From NCBI RefSeq assembly GCF_000295095.1, contig NZ_JH806632.1, positions 215,219 to 279,218 on the forward strand: DNA of 64,000 bases, given 5' to 3'. The translations under genes and the position numbers were made by a program. Position 1 is the first letter of the stretch. Each line of letters opens with the position of its first letter. This stretch comes from Actinomyces timonensis DSM 23838 (lineage in GTDB: Bacteria; Actinomycetota; Actinomycetes; Actinomycetales; Actinomycetaceae). Shown piece after piece: positions 32,946 through 48,074 of the stretch. The notes beneath the pieces are model-generated. The model ran no database searches. It was given only the letters and a program-made list of their open reading frames with translations, and had not been told where the DNA came from.

Positions 32946-34325
32946 ATGCGGACGTACCTCGATCATGCGGCGACGGCGCCCCTGCGCCCGGAGGTGGCTG
33001 AGCAGGTGGCGCGGGATGTGGCGGAGATGGCCGGGATTGCCGAGATGGTCGGCACTGCGGGGTCAACGGGTCCGGCTGACGGCCGGGCTGGGGCGGTGGG
33101 GGCGCTGGCGAATCCGGCGGCGCTGCATGGCTCGGGGCGCCGGGCGGCGGGGCTGCTGGCGCGGGCGCGCGCCCGGATCGCGGCGGCGCTGGGCGTGGAC
33201 GCCCACGAGGTCATCCTCACCTCCGGCGGGACGGAGGCCGACGGGCTCGTGGTGGCGGGCCGCGCGCTGGCGGTGCCGGGCGGGCCGCTGGCGGTCTCGG
33301 CGGTGGAGCATCCGGCGGTTCTGGACTCGGCGCGGACGGCGCAGGCGCGCCTGGGCGCGCGGCTGCGGGTGCTGGAGGTCGACGGCGCGGGGCTCGTGCG
33401 CCCCGAGACGGTGGCGGCGGCGGTGCGCGAGGCCCGGGAGGCTGGGGCTGGCGCGGCCGGAGTCGGCAGGGGCGAGAAGGGTGTTTCGGCGTCGAGCCCT
33501 GTGGCGCTCGTGAGCGTCATGGCGGCGAACAATGAGACGGGCGCGGTGCAGGACCTGGCGGGGATCGTGGAGGCGGTGCGCGACGCGAGCGGGACGCGGC
33601 GCCCGGGGCAGCCGGGGTACGTGCCGGTGCATGCGGACGCGGTGGCCGCCGTCGGGAGGGTGCCGCTGGATATCCATGGCTGGGGCCTGGACGCGGTGAG
33701 TATCTCGGGGCACAAGCTGGGCGCGCCGGTGGGCGTGGGCGCGCTGGTGGCGCGGCGCGATCTGGAGCTGGTGGCGCCGATGGGCGGGGGCCGCCAGGAG
33801 CGGGGGCTGCGCTCGGGCACGCAGGATGTCGTGGGGGCGCGGGCGCTGGCCCTGGCCCTGGAGCTGGCGGTGGCGGAGCGCGAGTCTGAGGCGGCGCGCT
33901 TGGAGGCGCTGCGGGAGCGGTTGCTGGCGGGAGCGCTGGCGATCCCGGGGGCGCATGCGACGCTGCCGGGGTCAGCGCCGCATCTGCCGGGGACGGCGCA
34001 TCTGTGGTTCGACGGCGTCAGCGCGGAGGCACTGCTCATGGCCCTGGATATGGCGGGGATCGACGCCTCGGCGGGCTCGGCCTGCCATGCGGGCGTGAGC
34101 GGCCCGAGCCATGTGCTGGAGGCGATGGGCCTGGGCGAGGAGGCGGCGCGGGGGACCCTGCGCTGCTCCATGGGCGCGGGGACGTCCGCCGACGACGTCG
34201 AGCGCCTGCTCGCGGCCCTGCCCTCCGCGGTGGAGACCGCGCGGCGGGCGCGCACAGGTCGCATGGCTACTGCGGGAACAGATTCAGCGGCGCTGACTGA
34301 GACCACTGCTCGTGGACAGTCGTGA
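32946..34325 (+). CDS. Cysteine desulfurase, NifS/IscS-like
   Basis: A 459-aa PLP enzyme that moves sulfur from cysteine to an acceptor; in actinobacteria this form usually supplies MnmA for tRNA 2-thiouridine. It has the opening YLDHAATAPL, the PLP Lys in VSISGHKLGAPVG and the catalytic Cys in ASAGSACHAGVSGPS. A Gly/Ala-rich insertion is present near residues 35-50. TAGGGT lies 6 nt before ATG, suggesting leaderless transcription. The last four codons and stop lie inside the flank of the first small-peptide cassette, so the C-terminus may have been replaced. mnmA is found 14.5 kb downstream, beyond the CRISPR island. Confidence 0.9.
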   Translation: MRTYLDHAATAPLRPEVAEQVARDVAEMAGIAEMVGTAGSTGPADGRAGAVGALANPAALHGSGRRAAGLLARARARIAAALGVDAHEVILTSGGTEADGLVVAGRALAVPGGPLAVSAVEHPAVLDSARTAQARLGARLRVLEVDGAGLVRPETVAAAVREAREAGAGAAGVGRGEKGVSASSPVALVSVMAANNETGAVQDLAGIVEAVRDASGTRRPGQPGYVPVHADAVAAVGRVPLDIHGWGLDAVSISGHKLGAPVGVGALVARRDLELVAPMGGGRQERGLRSGTQDVVGARALALALELAVAERESEAARLEALRERLLAGALAIPGAHATLPGSAPHLPGTAHLWFDGVSAEALLMALDMAGIDASAGSACHAGVSGPSHVLEAMGLGEEAARGTLRCSMGAGTSADDVERLLAALPSAVETARRARTGRMATAGTDSAALTETTARGQS

Positions 34326-34341
34326 GCGTGTGGGGCACAAT
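34313..34341 (+). promoter_or_regulatory. Predicted antisense-RNA promoter, cassette 1
   Basis: TGGACA (34313-34318), 17 bases, CACAAT (34336-34341). It points into the small gene on the opposite strand; the first transcribed bases would form the hairpin 34345-34378. The -35 box overlaps the last codons of the cysteine desulfurase gene. The same two boxes with identical 17-base spacing occur in all three cassettes. Confidence 0.6.
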
Positions 34342-34344
34342 GGT

Positions 34345-34378
34345 GGGGACCCACCCGGTTGCCGTCGGATGGGTCCCC
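34345..34378. ncRNA. Conserved hairpin at the predicted 5' end of antisense RNA, cassette 1
   Basis: GGGGACCCACCCG (34345-34357) pairs with CGGATGGGTCCCC (34366-34378) around 8 bases. On the plus strand it would be the 5' hairpin of an RNA from the promoter at 34313-34341; on the minus strand it would end the small mRNA. The stem is kept in all three cassettes. One pair is exchanged in copy 3 (C-G against G-C). The full RNA extent is unknown. Confidence 0.5.
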
Positions 34379-34390
34379 GAGGCCGATGGA

Positions 34391-34528
34391 TCAGTTGAAC
34401 CACCTGCCGAGGGCATCCACAAGGACACCGACGGCCCGGATCAGGCGAGCGATAGAGTTGATGGCTTCGCTCACCTGCCGGGCCGTTTCCTTGTCCTTGC
34501 GGACGTGGAGGCCTCTCGGCTTGGCCAT
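34391..34528 (-). CDS. 45-aa amphipathic peptide, toxin candidate, copy 1
   Basis: The peptide begins MAKPRGLHVRKDKETARQ (basic, polar) and ends LIRAVGVLVDALGRWFN, an amphipathic helix with Leu/Ile/Val on one face. Length and pattern recall membrane-acting type I toxins such as TisB; this is an analogy, not a detected homology. AGGAGGTGA, a near-perfect Shine-Dalgarno, lies 7 nt before ATG 34528. In the mRNA it can be masked by CACCTCCTCCC at 34585-34595. A second copy follows 287 bases away with 45 codons and the same flanks; a third, truncated copy lies at 47854-47973. An in-frame ATG at 34573 is less likely to be used. Confidence 0.65.
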   Translation of the reverse strand: MAKPRGLHVRKDKETARQVSEAINSIARLIRAVGVLVDALGRWFN

Positions 34529-34534
34529 GACCCT

Positions 34535-34618
34535 CACCTCCTCCCCGACTCCCTCCTTCCCCGGCAAGGACACGTGAGTGTTCCGGGAGGAGGTGCCGGA
34601 GAAGGCAGGACAAGCCTA
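34535..34618 (-). promoter_or_regulatory. Promoter and Shine-Dalgarno-masking leader, cassette 1
   Basis: On the minus strand a -10 box TAGGCT (34613-34618) predicts transcription from about 34606. The 5' part of the mRNA contains CACCTCCTCCC (34595-34585), the exact complement of GGGAGGAGGTG (34545-34535), which holds the Shine-Dalgarno. The 11-bp helix would enclose 39 bases and block initiation until the RNA is processed or refolded. No clear -35 is seen. Confidence 0.6.
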
Positions 34619-34736
34619 TCCGCAGGTGGCGACAGAAATGGGCCGTCGGGCGAGTGACCACGCACGAGGCGCTTTGGCCACCCCCGCGCCCAGCGGGATC
34701 TGAAGCGCTTGCCGGAGCGCGGCCTCGGCCGGTGCG

Positions 34737-34765
34737 TGGACAGTCCTGAGCGTCTGGGGCACAAT
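34737..34765 (+). promoter_or_regulatory. Predicted antisense-RNA promoter, cassette 2
   Basis: TGGACA (34737-34742), 17 bases, CACAAT (34760-34765), aimed into the second small gene. The following hairpin pairs GGGGACCCACCC (34769-34780) with GGATGGGTCCCC (34791-34802). Spacing and boxes are the same as in cassette 1. Confidence 0.6.
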
Positions 34766-34814
34766 GGTGGGGACCCACCCGGTTGCCTCCGGATGGGTCC
34801 CCGACGCAAGCGGT

Positions 34815-34952
34815 TCAGTTGATCCACTTGCTGAGGGCCTCCAACAGGACACTGACGGCCCGGATCAGGTCAGCGATCGCACGCAGCATCTCGCTGATCT
34901 TCCGGGCCGTTCCTGTGTCCTGGCGGACGTGGCGGCCTTTCGGCTTGGCCAT
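34815..34952 (-). CDS. 45-aa amphipathic peptide, toxin candidate, copy 2
   Basis: The peptide begins MAKPKGRHVRQDTGTARK and ends LIRAVSVLLEALSKWIN. It differs from copy 1 at about 18 of 45 positions, yet the length, basic N-terminus and hydrophobic face are preserved, and many changes are conservative (Val/Ile, Asp/Glu, Arg/Lys). That pattern argues for selection on the peptide. AGGAGGTGA stands 7 nt before ATG 34952. It may be an independent unit, because it has its own leader, hairpin and antisense promoter. I know of no named family. Confidence 0.65.
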   Translation of the reverse strand: MAKPKGRHVRQDTGTARKISEMLRAIADLIRAVSVLLEALSKWIN

Positions 34953-34958
34953 GACCCT

Positions 34959-35039
34959 CACCTCCTCCCCGACTCCCTTCTTCCCCGGCAGGACACTGCG
35001 CGTTCCGGGAGGAGGTGCCGGAGAAGGCGGGCAAGCCTA
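34959..35039 (-). promoter_or_regulatory. Promoter and Shine-Dalgarno-masking leader, cassette 2
   Basis: The -10 box TAGGCT (35034-35039) on the minus strand predicts a start near 35027. CACCTCCTCCC (35017-35007) is fully complementary to GGGAGGAGGTG (34969-34959), 6-7 nt before the ATG. The helix is identical to that of cassette 1 although the 37-base loop between the arms differs. Confidence 0.6.
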
Positions 35040-35145
35040 TGCGCAGGTGCCGACAGGAACGGGCTGGCGAGCGCTCATGCCGGGTCTCCCCGCATCGGCT
35101 CGGTTGCGGGGTGCGCCCCTGCGACGCGCGGATACGCTTGTGGGC

Positions 35146-35547
35146 ATGGGGATCAAGCCACAGGCTGCCGCGAGTAACACCGGCGACCACACCGCGTGGA
35201 GGCGGGCGCTGATCATCAGCGCCGCTTGCGCGTTCGTGTGCGGGGTCCTCACTGTCACACTACTGATCAGCGGCTCGTGGCTGTACGCGCAGGCGGTATT
35301 TCATGACCCCACGTCCAGAACGCTGTATGACGCCATGCGCCTGTGCGCCCTCGTGAGCCTCCTCACCCTTCCGCCAGTCGCGATACTCGGCATCCACCAC
35401 CTCTCGAACTTACTGAAACACTTATCGCCATCACGAGGGCGCCTAAACCTCATTGCTATTCACCTCACGGCTCTCCTCCTGGGCGCAGGAACAGCGATAG
35501 CGATTTACCTGCTCCTAGCCAGCCTCAACAATAGGGGCATCATCTAA
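35146..35547 (+). CDS. Small membrane protein, three transmembrane segments
   Basis: A 133-aa protein with three hydrophobic helices (IISAACAFVCGVLTVTLLI, LCALVSLLTLPPVAILGI, and IAIHLTALLLGAGTAIAIYL). No family is recognised. The ATG is 7 nt after TACGCT, so the mRNA may be leaderless. Codon use is less GC-biased than in neighbouring genes, as expected for recently acquired DNA. It sits between the tandem peptide cassettes and the distal end of the CRISPR array, so it might be a membrane accessory of either. Confidence 0.55.
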   Translation: MGIKPQAAASNTGDHTAWRRALIISAACAFVCGVLTVTLLISGSWLYAQAVFHDPTSRTLYDAMRLCALVSLLTLPPVAILGIHHLSNLLKHLSPSRGRLNLIAIHLTALLLGAGTAIAIYLLLASLNNRGII

Positions 35548-35575
35548 CAAGAATCGCAATCGTCTCCCCACGCTG

Positions 35576-38500
35576 ACCTCATTGAAGCGCACTTCCCTTA
35601 GCCGCTGCAATCAGAGTGAACTGCGCGCCGGGGGCACGGGGGAGGCAGAGGCGCGGCCTCAATGAAGTGCAGCCCCTAAGGGAACTGCAACCCAGCCCCC
35701 TCGGCGGGGGAGATGCCGTGCTCCGGGCCTCAATGAAGTGCAGCTCCTAAGGGAACTGCAACCCGTTCGCCGGCGACGGGACGGCGGCTGCCACAGGGCC
35801 TCAATGAAGTGCAGCTCCTAAGGGAACTGCAACAGAACACCTTCGCCGACCGAGTCCGTGGACTGCACGTGCCTCAATGAAGTGCAGCTCCTAAGGGAAC
35901 TGCAACGCACAACCTGAACGCCTGAGCCCTGCGGGACGCCAGCCTCAATGAAGTGCAGCTCCTAAGGGAACTGCAACGCCCTGGTGCGCGACCAGCACGG
36001 CACGAATTTTTACGGCCTCAATGAAGTGCAGCTCCTAAGGGAACTGCAACCTCTCGCGGGTGTCGCTGGCAAGATGGTCCTACGGCCTCAATGAAGTGCA
36101 GCTCCTAAGGGAACTGCAACCCTGCGATGGGCCCAGTGCCTCAAGCAGATCGAGCCTCAATGAAGTGCAGCTCCTAAGGGAACTGCAACAGATCATTGAG
36201 AAGGTCTTCAAGTTTGCCAAGAAGCCTCAATGAAGTGCAGCTCCTAAGGGAACTGCAACACCATCCAGCCACTGTTCGAGGAGAACGACACGCCTCAATG
36301 AAGTGCAGTTCCCGAAGGAACTGCAACACGGGGGGGCAAGCCCGATCCCACCTTATCGAATGTGCCTCAATGAAGTGCAGTTCCCGAAGGAACTGCAACA
36401 GAGCTTCGCGAACGGCGGGTACAACCGCCCCCCGATGCCTCAATGAAGTGCAGTTCCCGAAGGAACTGCAACCACAAGTCCCACACGCCGGTAACAGGGA
36501 TCGTCCCGCCTCAATGAAGTGCAGTTCCCGAAGGAACTGCAACCGGCCGTGGCGGCCGTCGCGGTGGCGGCGCTGGTGGAGCCTCAATGAAGTGCAGTTC
36601 CCGAAGGAACTGCAACGCCTTCCTCCCCGGCGCCACCAACCCCACCCGCCAGCCTCAATGAAGTGCAGTTCCCGAAGGAACTGCAACTGGACATGTTTCC
36701 TCCTAGAGAGTCACGTCAACAACAGCCTCAATGAAGTGCAGTTCCCGAAGGAACTGCAACGGGTATGAAGTGGGGTGTTCGAAAGCAGCGTTCTCAGGGC
36801 CTCAATGAAGTGCAGTTCCCGAAGGAACTGCAACGTGTACGCCCTCCTGCGCTGATAGCCTCAACCACCCGGCCTCAATGAAGTGCAGTTCCCGAAGGAA
36901 CTGCAACACTGTGACCGCTTCGCGTGACACCCTGCCGAAGGGCGCCTCAATGAAGTGCAGTTCCCGAAGGAACTGCAACAAGAGTAATCTCGTCGTCAGG
37001 CCTATAGTCGCCGGTCCCCGCCTCAATGAAGTGGTTCCCGAAGGAACTGCAACTCTGGTACGACACGGCGAACGGGTACAAGCCGTACATGCCTCAATGA
37101 AGTGCAGTTCCCGAAGGAACTGCAACCTCATTAGGGCCAAGTGATGGCTAAGCGCGACGAGCCTCAATGAAGTGCAGTTCCCGAAGGAACTGCAACCCGG
37201 TCTGCGCGGTCATCGTCACTTCATGGTGCCGGCCTCAATGAAGTGCAGTTCCCAAAGGAACTGCAACGCCTTGTTCTTGACCCAGCTGGAGGCCCGCGAC
37301 CAGGCCTCAATGAAGTGCAGTTTCCAAAGGAACTGCAACCTGGGTGATCCCCGGCCGCATGATGACTCACTGAAAAGGCCTCAATGAAGTGCAGTTCCCA
37401 AAGGAACTGCAACGGCACGGCCAGTGGCCGATGAGCGCTCACATCCACCAGCCTCAATGAACTGCAGTTCCCAAAGGAACTGCAACGTCCCGGAGGACAG
37501 CCCGGGCAGTGTCGCGGAGAATAGCGCCTCAATGAAGTGCAGTTCCCAAAGGAACTGCAACATCAGTCATGCAACGCCACCGTCGCCCAAGATCATGCCT
37601 CAATGAAGTGCAGTTCCCAAAAGAACTGCAACATCCAGGTCTACAGTGACAGCGCCGAGATCTTCGCGCCTCAATGAAGTGCAGTTCCCAAAGGAACTGC
37701 AACGGTGGGCTATTGCCGGGCTGACAACGGCGGTGGGTATGCCTCAATGAAGTGCAGTTCCCAAAGGAACTGCAACCGTTCTAGGCGTCCTCGATGCGGA
37801 GGGTGATCCCGCCTCAATGAAGTGCAGTTCCCAAAGGAACTGCAACTCGCTGATATGGAGCATGGGCCGGCGTCGATCTGGCCTCAATGAAGTGCGGCTC
37901 CTAAGGGAACTGCAACGTCGGACTCCAATGACGCGCTCCCGGAGCACTTCAAGCCTCAATGAAGTGCAGCTCCTAAGGGAACTGCAACTTCAGCGCGGTC
38001 GGAGCATTGGACACTGAGAACTGGGAGCCTCAATGAAGTGCAGCTCCTAAGGGAACTGCAACTTCAGCGCGGTCGGAGCATTGGACACTGAGAACTGGGA
38101 GCCTCAATGAAGTGCAGCTCCTAAGGGAACTGCAACCCTGCTGTCCAACCTGGTGCAGACCATGATGATGCCTCAATGAAGTGCAGTTCCCAAAGGAACT
38201 GCAACTCCGGCGGCGTCGCCGTCCTCGGCGCCGGACTCACGCCTCAATGAAGTGCAGTTCACAAAGGAACTGCAACAATGGAGACGGATTGAGCAAGTCG
38301 TCATATGCAACGCCTCAATGAAGTGCAGTTCCCAAAGGAACTGCAACGCGAGTGAAAGACTCCGGTGACCGTTGACCTGTATGGCCTCAATGAAGTGCAG
38401 TTCCCAAAGGAACTGCAACGAGAGCGTGGCCAACGCCTGGAATCGCGGGACCAGCCTCGATGAAGTGCAGTTCCCAAAGGAACTGCAACGAGGATCAGGC

Positions 38501-47775: not shown

Positions 47776-47804
47776 TGGACAGCCCGACGCCCAGCGCCCA
47801 TAAT
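47776..47804 (+). promoter_or_regulatory. Predicted antisense-RNA promoter, cassette 3
   Basis: TGGACA (47776-47781), 17 bases, CATAAT (47799-47804), the best match to consensus of the three copies. It faces the truncated peptide gene. The next hairpin pairs GGGGAGCCACCCGG (47808-47821) with CCGGATGACTCCCC (47828-47841), a 14-bp stem with two wobble-type positions. Confidence 0.6.
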
Positions 47805-47853
47805 GGTGGGGAGCCACCCGGCTGCCACCGGATGACTCCCCGAGGCCCATGGC

Positions 47854-47973
47854 TCACACGAACCACGTGCCGAGGGCATCCGCTAGGACACCGACGGCCC
47901 GGACCAGGCAAGCGATGCTGCTAAGTATGTCGCTCACCTGCCGGGCCGTTACCTTGTCCCGGCGGACTCGCAC
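47854..47973 (-). pseudogene. 5'-truncated copy of the small-peptide gene, copy 3
   Basis: The frame encodes RRDKVTARQVSDILSSIA then CLVRAVGVLADALGTWFV and ends TGA at 47854. It aligns with copies 1 and 2 from the HVR residues onward; the MAKP start, the Shine-Dalgarno and the masking leader are missing, and TAG precedes the frame. A GTG at 47973 could start a 39-aa form. The antisense promoter and hairpin are well kept, so this copy may now serve only as an antisense-RNA source. Confidence 0.6.
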
Positions 47974-48074
47974 GTGCTAGCGCGCCCACCGCTTGGGCGC
48001 CGTCCGCCCGAGGGCCAGAGCGGAGGGCCCCACCACCAGCCGGGACCCGCTGACCACCTCATCCGGCCATACGC

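Follow-up and report, generated by a model that had tools for sequence, protein, structure and literature searches.

The DNA analysed here is a window of 64,000 nucleotides from Actinomyces timonensis DSM 23838 (contig NZ_JH806632.1, positions 215,219 to 279,218), whose genome of 2.93 Mb is assembled in 4 contigs. The window contains three copies of a short cassette, two of them with an intact gene for a basic peptide of 45 residues and one damaged, and each with a promoter pointing into the peptide gene from the opposite strand. We consider it probable that each cassette is a DNA-damage-induced type I toxin-antitoxin-like module, resembling TisB/IstR but with PafBC in place of LexA. PafBC is the actinobacterial sensor of single-stranded DNA. 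Comparison between copies supports the peptide family, its reading frame, both promoters, the hairpins in the coding and 3' regions of the mRNA, and an asymmetry in how the parts of the cassette are lost.

From this layout we infer that both strands are transcribed, where the transcripts end, that control is exerted by pairing, and that the peptide is toxic and targets the membrane. The proposed scheme is as follows. DNA damage would expose single-stranded DNA, PafBC would become active, and RNA polymerase would then read the peptide promoter on the minus strand. The peptide mRNA would be born locked, with its first ~25 nt paired to the Shine-Dalgarno sequence and the coding region itself folded into a long hairpin. 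A sigma-70-type promoter just beyond the peptide stop codon would constitutively produce an antisense RNA of ~154 nt from the other strand, which would extend over the 3' untranslated region (UTR) and the greater part of the coding sequence before terminating at the same palindrome. Pairing with this RNA would remove or silence the peptide mRNA. On damage, the peptide mRNA would come to outnumber its antisense partner, so that the basic amphipathic peptide would be made; its probable target is the membrane of the producing cell, and growth of damaged cells would be slowed or arrested.

On balance we also favour a broader reading, that these are genus-wide type I modules that have converged on the TisB/IstR logic and become wired to PafBC, with a single palindromic coding sequence doing triple duty as gene for the peptide, lock on the mRNA and terminator of the antisense RNA. 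If true, this would be a type I toxin in the Actinomycetota triggered by DNA damage through a regulator unrelated to LexA, and an RNA-controlled membrane-peptide switch would have been wired to the DNA-damage alarm more than once in bacteria. Oral commensals and opportunists have several such copies in one genome, each with a promoter that can be assayed, and in these bacteria a role in damage tolerance and persistence would become testable outside Escherichia coli.

The peptide and its reading frame

Cassettes 1 and 2 are direct repeats, offset by 424 bp, with stretches of 143 nt at 87% identity and 100 nt at 90%. The two open reading frames (ORFs) of 45 residues on the minus strand, which the initial annotation had described, are present at 34391–34528 (cassette 1) and 34815–34952 (cassette 2), and would encode the putative toxin. 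Both begin with ATG and are preceded by the identical sequence GGAGGAGGTGAGGGTCATG; the Shine-Dalgarno sequences are at 34535–34544 (GGAGGAGGTG) and 34959–34968. The peptides are 45–47 residues long, with a net charge of +5 to +9 and a hydrophobic moment of 0.78–0.80, and so share with the toxins of type I systems the character of a small (<60 residues) hydrophobic or amphipathic peptide.

The family was compared using 97 non-redundant copies, intact and broken, from the fetched loci (L087–L124 duplicate assemblies already represented and were excluded). Tests of the leader and of covariation used 67 aligned full-length copies, the coding tests 64 copies, the antisense promoter test 80 distinct copies (82 with a scorable −10 box) and the peptide promoter test 58 distinct promoters.

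Substitutions are most conservative in the sense frame (nonsynonymous BLOSUM z of 7.3 over 32 disjoint nearest pairs), and four of the other frames have z ≤0.8. Indel cells are divisible by three in 8 of 11 cases in the coding region, compared with 7 of 96 for the leader. The start codon is GTG in 56 copies and ATG in 8, with a Shine-Dalgarno sequence present. On this comparative evidence the peptide is real and conserved in its sense frame. Substitutions that did not preserve the frame had been named in the initial annotation as an outcome that would tell against it; the peptide frame proves to be the favoured one.

Structure of the peptide mRNA

The 67 aligned copies share a consensus fold of 50 pairs, with 97.7% of cells paired. 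Double-change cells number 15 in the outer helix of the coding region and 18 in the inner helix, against shuffle maxima of 7 and 6. The 3' hairpin (minus strand, 34345–34378 in cassette 1 and 34769–34802 in cassette 2) has 25, and no shuffle exceeds 13. This hairpin was part of the initial annotation, which regarded homologues lacking it as counter-evidence, and it is kept. G-U wobbles suit the peptide strand rather than the other strand in a ratio of 135:8 in the leader, 159:15 in the coding region and 91:7 in the 3' helices, giving 385 in favour of the mRNA strand and 30 against. This bias implies that the peptide mRNA is the strand whose fold is kept. Judged by covariation and wobble polarity, then, the coding and 3' hairpins are kept as mRNA structure. 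In cassette 1 the palindrome within the peptide gene covers 34420–34501, and is predicted to give a long hairpin in the mRNA and a terminator-like stem on the opposite strand.

The leader contains an anti-Shine-Dalgarno stretch (34582–34597 and 35004–35019, minus strand). In predicted folds the Shine-Dalgarno sequence has a mean unpaired probability below 0.3 in 61 of the 67 copies, which agrees both with the hidden ribosome-binding site typical of type I systems and with the masking leader that had been proposed from the window alone.

The antisense promoter and the pattern of loss

The plus-strand promoters of the initial annotation are found at 34313–34341 in cassette 1 (−35 box TGGACA at 34313–34318, 17 nt, −10 box CACAAT at 34336–34341) and, with the same boxes and spacing, at 34737–34765 in cassette 2. 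The spacing of exactly 17 bases holds for both of these cassettes, but not for the family as a whole, where it is 17 or 18, with 18 the commoner. TGGACA-N17-CAYAAT has three matches in the window and none in 100 shuffles. The third match belongs to cassette 3, which is damaged (47776–47979). Here the antisense promoter is intact (TGGACA-N17-CATAAT, 47776–47804, plus strand) and is followed on the minus strand by the 3' hairpin (47808–47841) and a remnant of the peptide gene (47860–47979), which has lost its start codon and leader and has an in-frame TAG ahead of it.

Across the family, 82 of the 97 copies have a −10-like hexamer on the opposite strand directly after the 3' hairpin, and in 66 this is CATAAT or CACAAT. 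All but one of the 80 distinct copies match TTGACA at four or more of six positions at a spacing of 17 or 18, compared with a mean of 2.9 and a maximum of 9 in shuffles; at neighbouring spacings none to three copies do so. The −35 boxes differ between subfamilies and are equally good (TGGACA in 37, TTGCCA in 11, TGGACG in 8 and TTGCCC in 8), and the bases separating the −35 and −10 boxes are variable. As far as comparison can establish it, the antisense promoter is real, and the loss of the promoter pair from homologues, also named beforehand as an adverse outcome, is not seen in 79 of the 80 scorable copies. The antisense RNA is predicted to be 154 nt long (plus strand, 34348–34501 and 34772–34925) and to enter the coding palindrome, where in cassette 1 it would stop at a GC-rich stem followed by TTTCCTTGTCCTTG, resembling an intrinsic terminator.

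Sixty-four of the 97 copies have an intact peptide gene with the promoter, 16 have a broken peptide gene with the promoter and 17 have lost both; there are none in which the peptide is intact and the promoter absent. Grouped by 5' sequence, the 16 broken copies represent 12 break classes, and 0 against 12 corresponds to a two-sided sign probability of ~0.0005. If the peptide is toxic, its gene may be lost while the promoter is kept, but never the reverse. The asymmetry is thus what would be expected of an antitoxin, as an evolutionary proxy only. Copies were found via the peptide, so that a wholly lost peptide goes unseen, but an intact peptide without a promoter would have been found.

The peptide promoter

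The initial annotation missed the nature of the peptide promoter, which appears to be of the DNA-damage (PafBC) type and would be inducible. The promoters lie 5' of the leader, have a −10 box that is TANNNT or CATGAT-like, and carry the PafBC motif TGTCRGTG-N8-TANNNT. In cassette 1 (34613–34635, minus strand) the −26 box is CTGTCGCCA, followed by 8 nt and the −10 box TAGGCT (34613–34618), with 8 of 12 consensus positions; in cassette 2 (35034–35056, minus strand) the sequence is CTGTCGGCA-N8-TAGGCT, with 9 of 12. The peptide mRNAs are predicted to start near 34606 and 35027. The mycobacterial LexA-independent promoter is tTGTCRgtg-8 nt-TannnT (PMC5656591), and PafBC binds via the −26 motif and is activated by single-stranded DNA (PMC11804915).

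The motif was scored on alignment columns (12 positions) and, separately, anchored on the −10 box. TGTCRGTG gives a peak at a spacer of 8 only, with a mean match of 4.69 out of 8, compared to 1.55–3.05 for all other spacers from 2 to 23. Matches of at least 6 out of 8 occur in 26 of the 58 distinct promoters (shuffles: mean 0.6, maximum 4), and of at least 5 out of 8 in 14 of 34 dissimilar promoter clusters (mean 1.85, maximum 7). By contrast, TTGACA has no peak at any spacer of the peptide promoter. The best motif match is at a fixed distance in 42 of the 67 copies, and 27 of the 67 match at least 9 of the 12 positions, where 200 shuffles average 1.4 such copies and never exceed 5. The better copies therefore have the organisation of the PafBC regulon (a −26 box TTGTCRGTG, an 8-nt spacer and TANNNT, with no −35 box), the remaining copies being weak.

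The host genome has four strict matches to the motif, and none for the reversed control. One is 89 bp ahead of recA, two fall within the 5' portion of ORFs, one encoding a DEAD/Helicase_C protein and the other a PDDEXK nuclease, and the fourth lies ahead of a putative metK. Only two WYL genes were found in this genome, adjacent to each other and beside tatC, as expected if PafBC is present; on the basis of their domains, and of a neighbourhood typical of these genes, they are presumably pafB and pafC. Over the 49 genomes of the genus, the matches listed for a looser motif add up to about 605, compared with about 90 listed for its control. In one of these genomes, 3 of the 15 listed matches are 89–109 bp ahead of its three cassettes.

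Distribution and genomic setting

The family was found in 37 of the 49 Actinomyces genomes searched. No genome has more than 7 peptide places (the host genome has 6) or, when split pieces are counted, more than 10 DNA matches. The 38 loci with a cassette feature all come from genomes named Actinomyces. The 97 copies occupy at least 35 distinct flank clusters, conservation among aligned copies ends at the two promoters, and the peptide gene is broken in 33 of the 97. The peptide gene is interrupted in four loci (L042, L044, L045 and L047) by insertions ranging from several hundred bp to 1.4 kb, flanked by surviving cassette pieces; the insertion in L042 contains transposase-like coding sequence. 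In two loci from ruminant Actinomyces (L041 and L043), short direct repeats with ggtccaaac-type units fill the region 5' of the broken cassettes. Two A. oris-like loci (L163 and L164, from genomes G023 and G014) have a diverged peptide-like C-terminus in frame, 3' of a helix-turn-helix or replication-initiator-like ORF.

Beyond the genus, a relative of 39–40 residues was found in 2 genomes of the taxonomic family (213 genomes searched, including the 49 in the genus). These distant relatives (L169 in G174 and L171 in G143) belong to another genus, and their conserved leader complements the ribosome-binding region; a PafBC-type box was not evident on inspection by eye. L169 starts with ATA, and may thus be dead; it also contains a hairpin and T run that resemble a terminator. 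A further match outside the genus (G186) has neither the short ORF nor the leader and was rejected. A sample of 394 genomes from across the class gave 2 with a match, and neither added anything convincing: one is the host genome itself, and the other match lies inside a frame of 735 residues and was taken as chance.

Searches of phages, plasmids and IMG/VR gave no cassette match, and none of 45 pattern stretches was confirmed. No terminal inverted repeats, and no transposase as a standard part of the cassette, were seen. A mobile element, which the many flank clusters and insertion-split copies might suggest, was rejected in view of these two negative results. Rfam at the gathering score found nothing in 10 loci except 3 tRNAs, and the window gave no more than a pair of sub-threshold matches, one to mir-328 (E 0.42) and one to a CRISPR repeat family (E 0.21). 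The peptide has no match in NCBIfam or PADLOC; sub-threshold matches in Pfam (E 0.019) and PHROG (E 0.081–0.21) were taken as chance.

Relation to CRISPR-Cas

The initial annotation placed the cassettes next to a type I-G CRISPR (clustered regularly interspaced short palindromic repeats) locus, which is borne out by matches of the neighbouring cas genes to the Cas8g, Cas3g, Cas56g and Cas7g models. The cassettes, all in the same orientation, bracket this locus, with cassettes 1 and 2 before the array and cassette 3 ~120 bp past the start of cas7g. A degenerate sequence resembling the CRISPR repeat lies at 35578–35612, ~78 bp ahead of the first array repeat at 35656.

A. denticolens (L227) has a broken cassette at the corresponding chromosomal site, beside the cysteine desulfurase gene, with a type I-E-like cas operon after it. 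In this operon cas3 and cas1 were assigned by model, and the other cas names are tentative, judged from N-termini. A. gaoshouyii has a cassette remnant near a cas1. At this site the cassettes persist across a change of CRISPR type; they are not a component of the CRISPR system. Proximity to cas1 was scored genus-wide for 101 of the 102 in-genus peptide places, the second piece of one copy being excluded. Only 5 of the 101 have a cas1 within 20 kb, all of them in 3 genomes, with ~2 expected and with contig ends limiting the count; those outside the host genome are broken copies. It is this test, and not a scan for arrays, that argues against any general link: arrays were found in the fetched flanks of 2 of 91 loci, and none was found in the A. 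denticolens stretch despite its cas operon.

On this evidence the link to CRISPR is local to this site, where the cassettes may provide homology for swapping CRISPR loci. The proposal that the pairs form an addiction or abortive-infection module tied to CRISPR-Cas is thus not supported. The other part of that proposal, a toxin mRNA facing an antisense RNA, stands as a layout, on the evidence of the promoter pair, the hairpin and the frame.

Alternative explanations

Several observations weigh against a damage-induced toxin under RNA control. The leader helix hardly varies, and its 5 double-change cells are not above chance (shuffle maximum 7). Trimming the first ~25–30 nt, which contain the anti-Shine-Dalgarno stretch, raises the predicted accessibility of the Shine-Dalgarno sequence in 59 of 67 copies, but to more than 0.5 in only 26. 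About half of the copies show a poor PafBC motif or lack it, and the two promoters in the window reach only 8 and 9 of its 12 positions. The 17 copies that have lost both halves imply that loss also tracks general decay. The best 19-residue mean hydropathy is 1.45–1.55, below the values usual for transmembrane segments, which implies a peptide that is amphipathic rather than plainly membrane-spanning. The complementary antisense (+0) frame, which mirrors the sense frame, reaches a BLOSUM z of 4.0, and the Nei-Gojobori ratio of nonsynonymous to synonymous differences (pN/pS) is 0.70 in the sense frame, not far from the 0.75 and 0.82 of two antisense frames. Third codon positions are nearly fixed, and the small difference is explained if synonymous sites are held as well, by RNA structure.

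The same evidence from the peptide promoter, the frame and the antisense promoter would fit a useful, non-toxic stress peptide induced by PafBC and tuned by the antisense RNA, for example a division or membrane-repair factor, and an amphipathic helix is in itself no proof of toxicity. We regard this as unlikely, since it does not predict a promoter in all 64 intact copies and in 16 broken ones, nor the masking of the Shine-Dalgarno sequence in 61 of 67, nor the breakage of 33 of 97. A peptide directed at other cells, like a leaderless bacteriocin, with the antisense RNA protecting the producer from untimely expression, would account for the basic amphipathic character and for several variant copies per genome. 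It is much less probable: the copies are scattered over at least 35 flank clusters, and no conserved export, immunity or modification gene was found nearby, though flanking genes were not annotated individually.

If the cassette were instead a repeated structured-RNA element, mobile or regulatory, in which the palindrome creates a reading frame incidentally, then nearly fixed third codon positions, covarying hairpins and many copies per genome would be natural. Frame-specific conservative substitutions (z 7.3), a Shine-Dalgarno sequence with an ATG or GTG start in 64 copies, a diverged peptide relative in another genus, and conservation that ends at the two promoters, with no terminal inverted repeats or standard transposase seen, make this if anything slightly more improbable than a bacteriocin. 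Least likely of all is an addiction module guarding CRISPR in the manner of CreTA, an extension of the initial annotation. CreTA sits in cas loci and has an antitoxin resembling CRISPR repeats. The bracketing of the type I-G locus by three cassettes, and the remnants in A. denticolens and A. gaoshouyii, suggested such a role. It is very hard to reconcile with the 96 of 101 places that have no cas1 within 20 kb, with the broken state of the near ones outside the host genome, and with a repeat search of 33500–36000 that found no family common to the cassettes and the CRISPR repeats.

Comparison with known systems

A literature search, covering open-access papers and few subscription ones, yielded no report of a type I system from Actinomyces or of one linked to PafBC. 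The closest parallel to the proposed toxin module is tisB/istR-1 of E. coli, where, according to PMC4147584 and PMC7708055, DNA damage induces the toxin and not the antitoxin, as is predicted here from sequence, and where there is likewise a short amphipathic peptide, a structured primary mRNA that limits translation, and an RNA antitoxin. Family searches found no match for the cassette peptide. The activator motif is that of PafBC rather than a LexA box (a LexA box was not searched for), and, unlike the divergent istR-1, which pairs with the 5' UTR, the antisense promoter of the cassette is at the 3' end and its RNA would overlap the codons. The cassettes therefore lie outside the TisB/IstR family as defined by a LexA-controlled toxin and a divergent, 5'-UTR-pairing antitoxin.

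The promoter, in turn, resembles those of the mycobacterial PafBC regulon in having tTGTCRgtg-N8-TannnT without a −35 box and in the presence of the motif ahead of recA (PMC5656591 and PMC11804915). The only toxin-antitoxin link found there is of type II, a remark in PMC8165232 that the antitoxin VapB of M. smegmatis belongs to the regulon; no type I member was found in these sources.

In arrangement the cassettes resemble bsrG/SR4 and txpA/RatA of Bacillus subtilis, which have the same convergent geometry and in which sequestration of the Shine-Dalgarno sequence is part of the control, according to PMC4147584. They differ in that the cassettes are not prophage-borne, as judged from the phage, plasmid and IMG/VR searches, and in having an overlap that would cover most of the codons and a promoter of DNA-damage type. 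By analogy, then, the cassettes would combine the logic of tisB/istR-1 with the geometry of bsrG/SR4.

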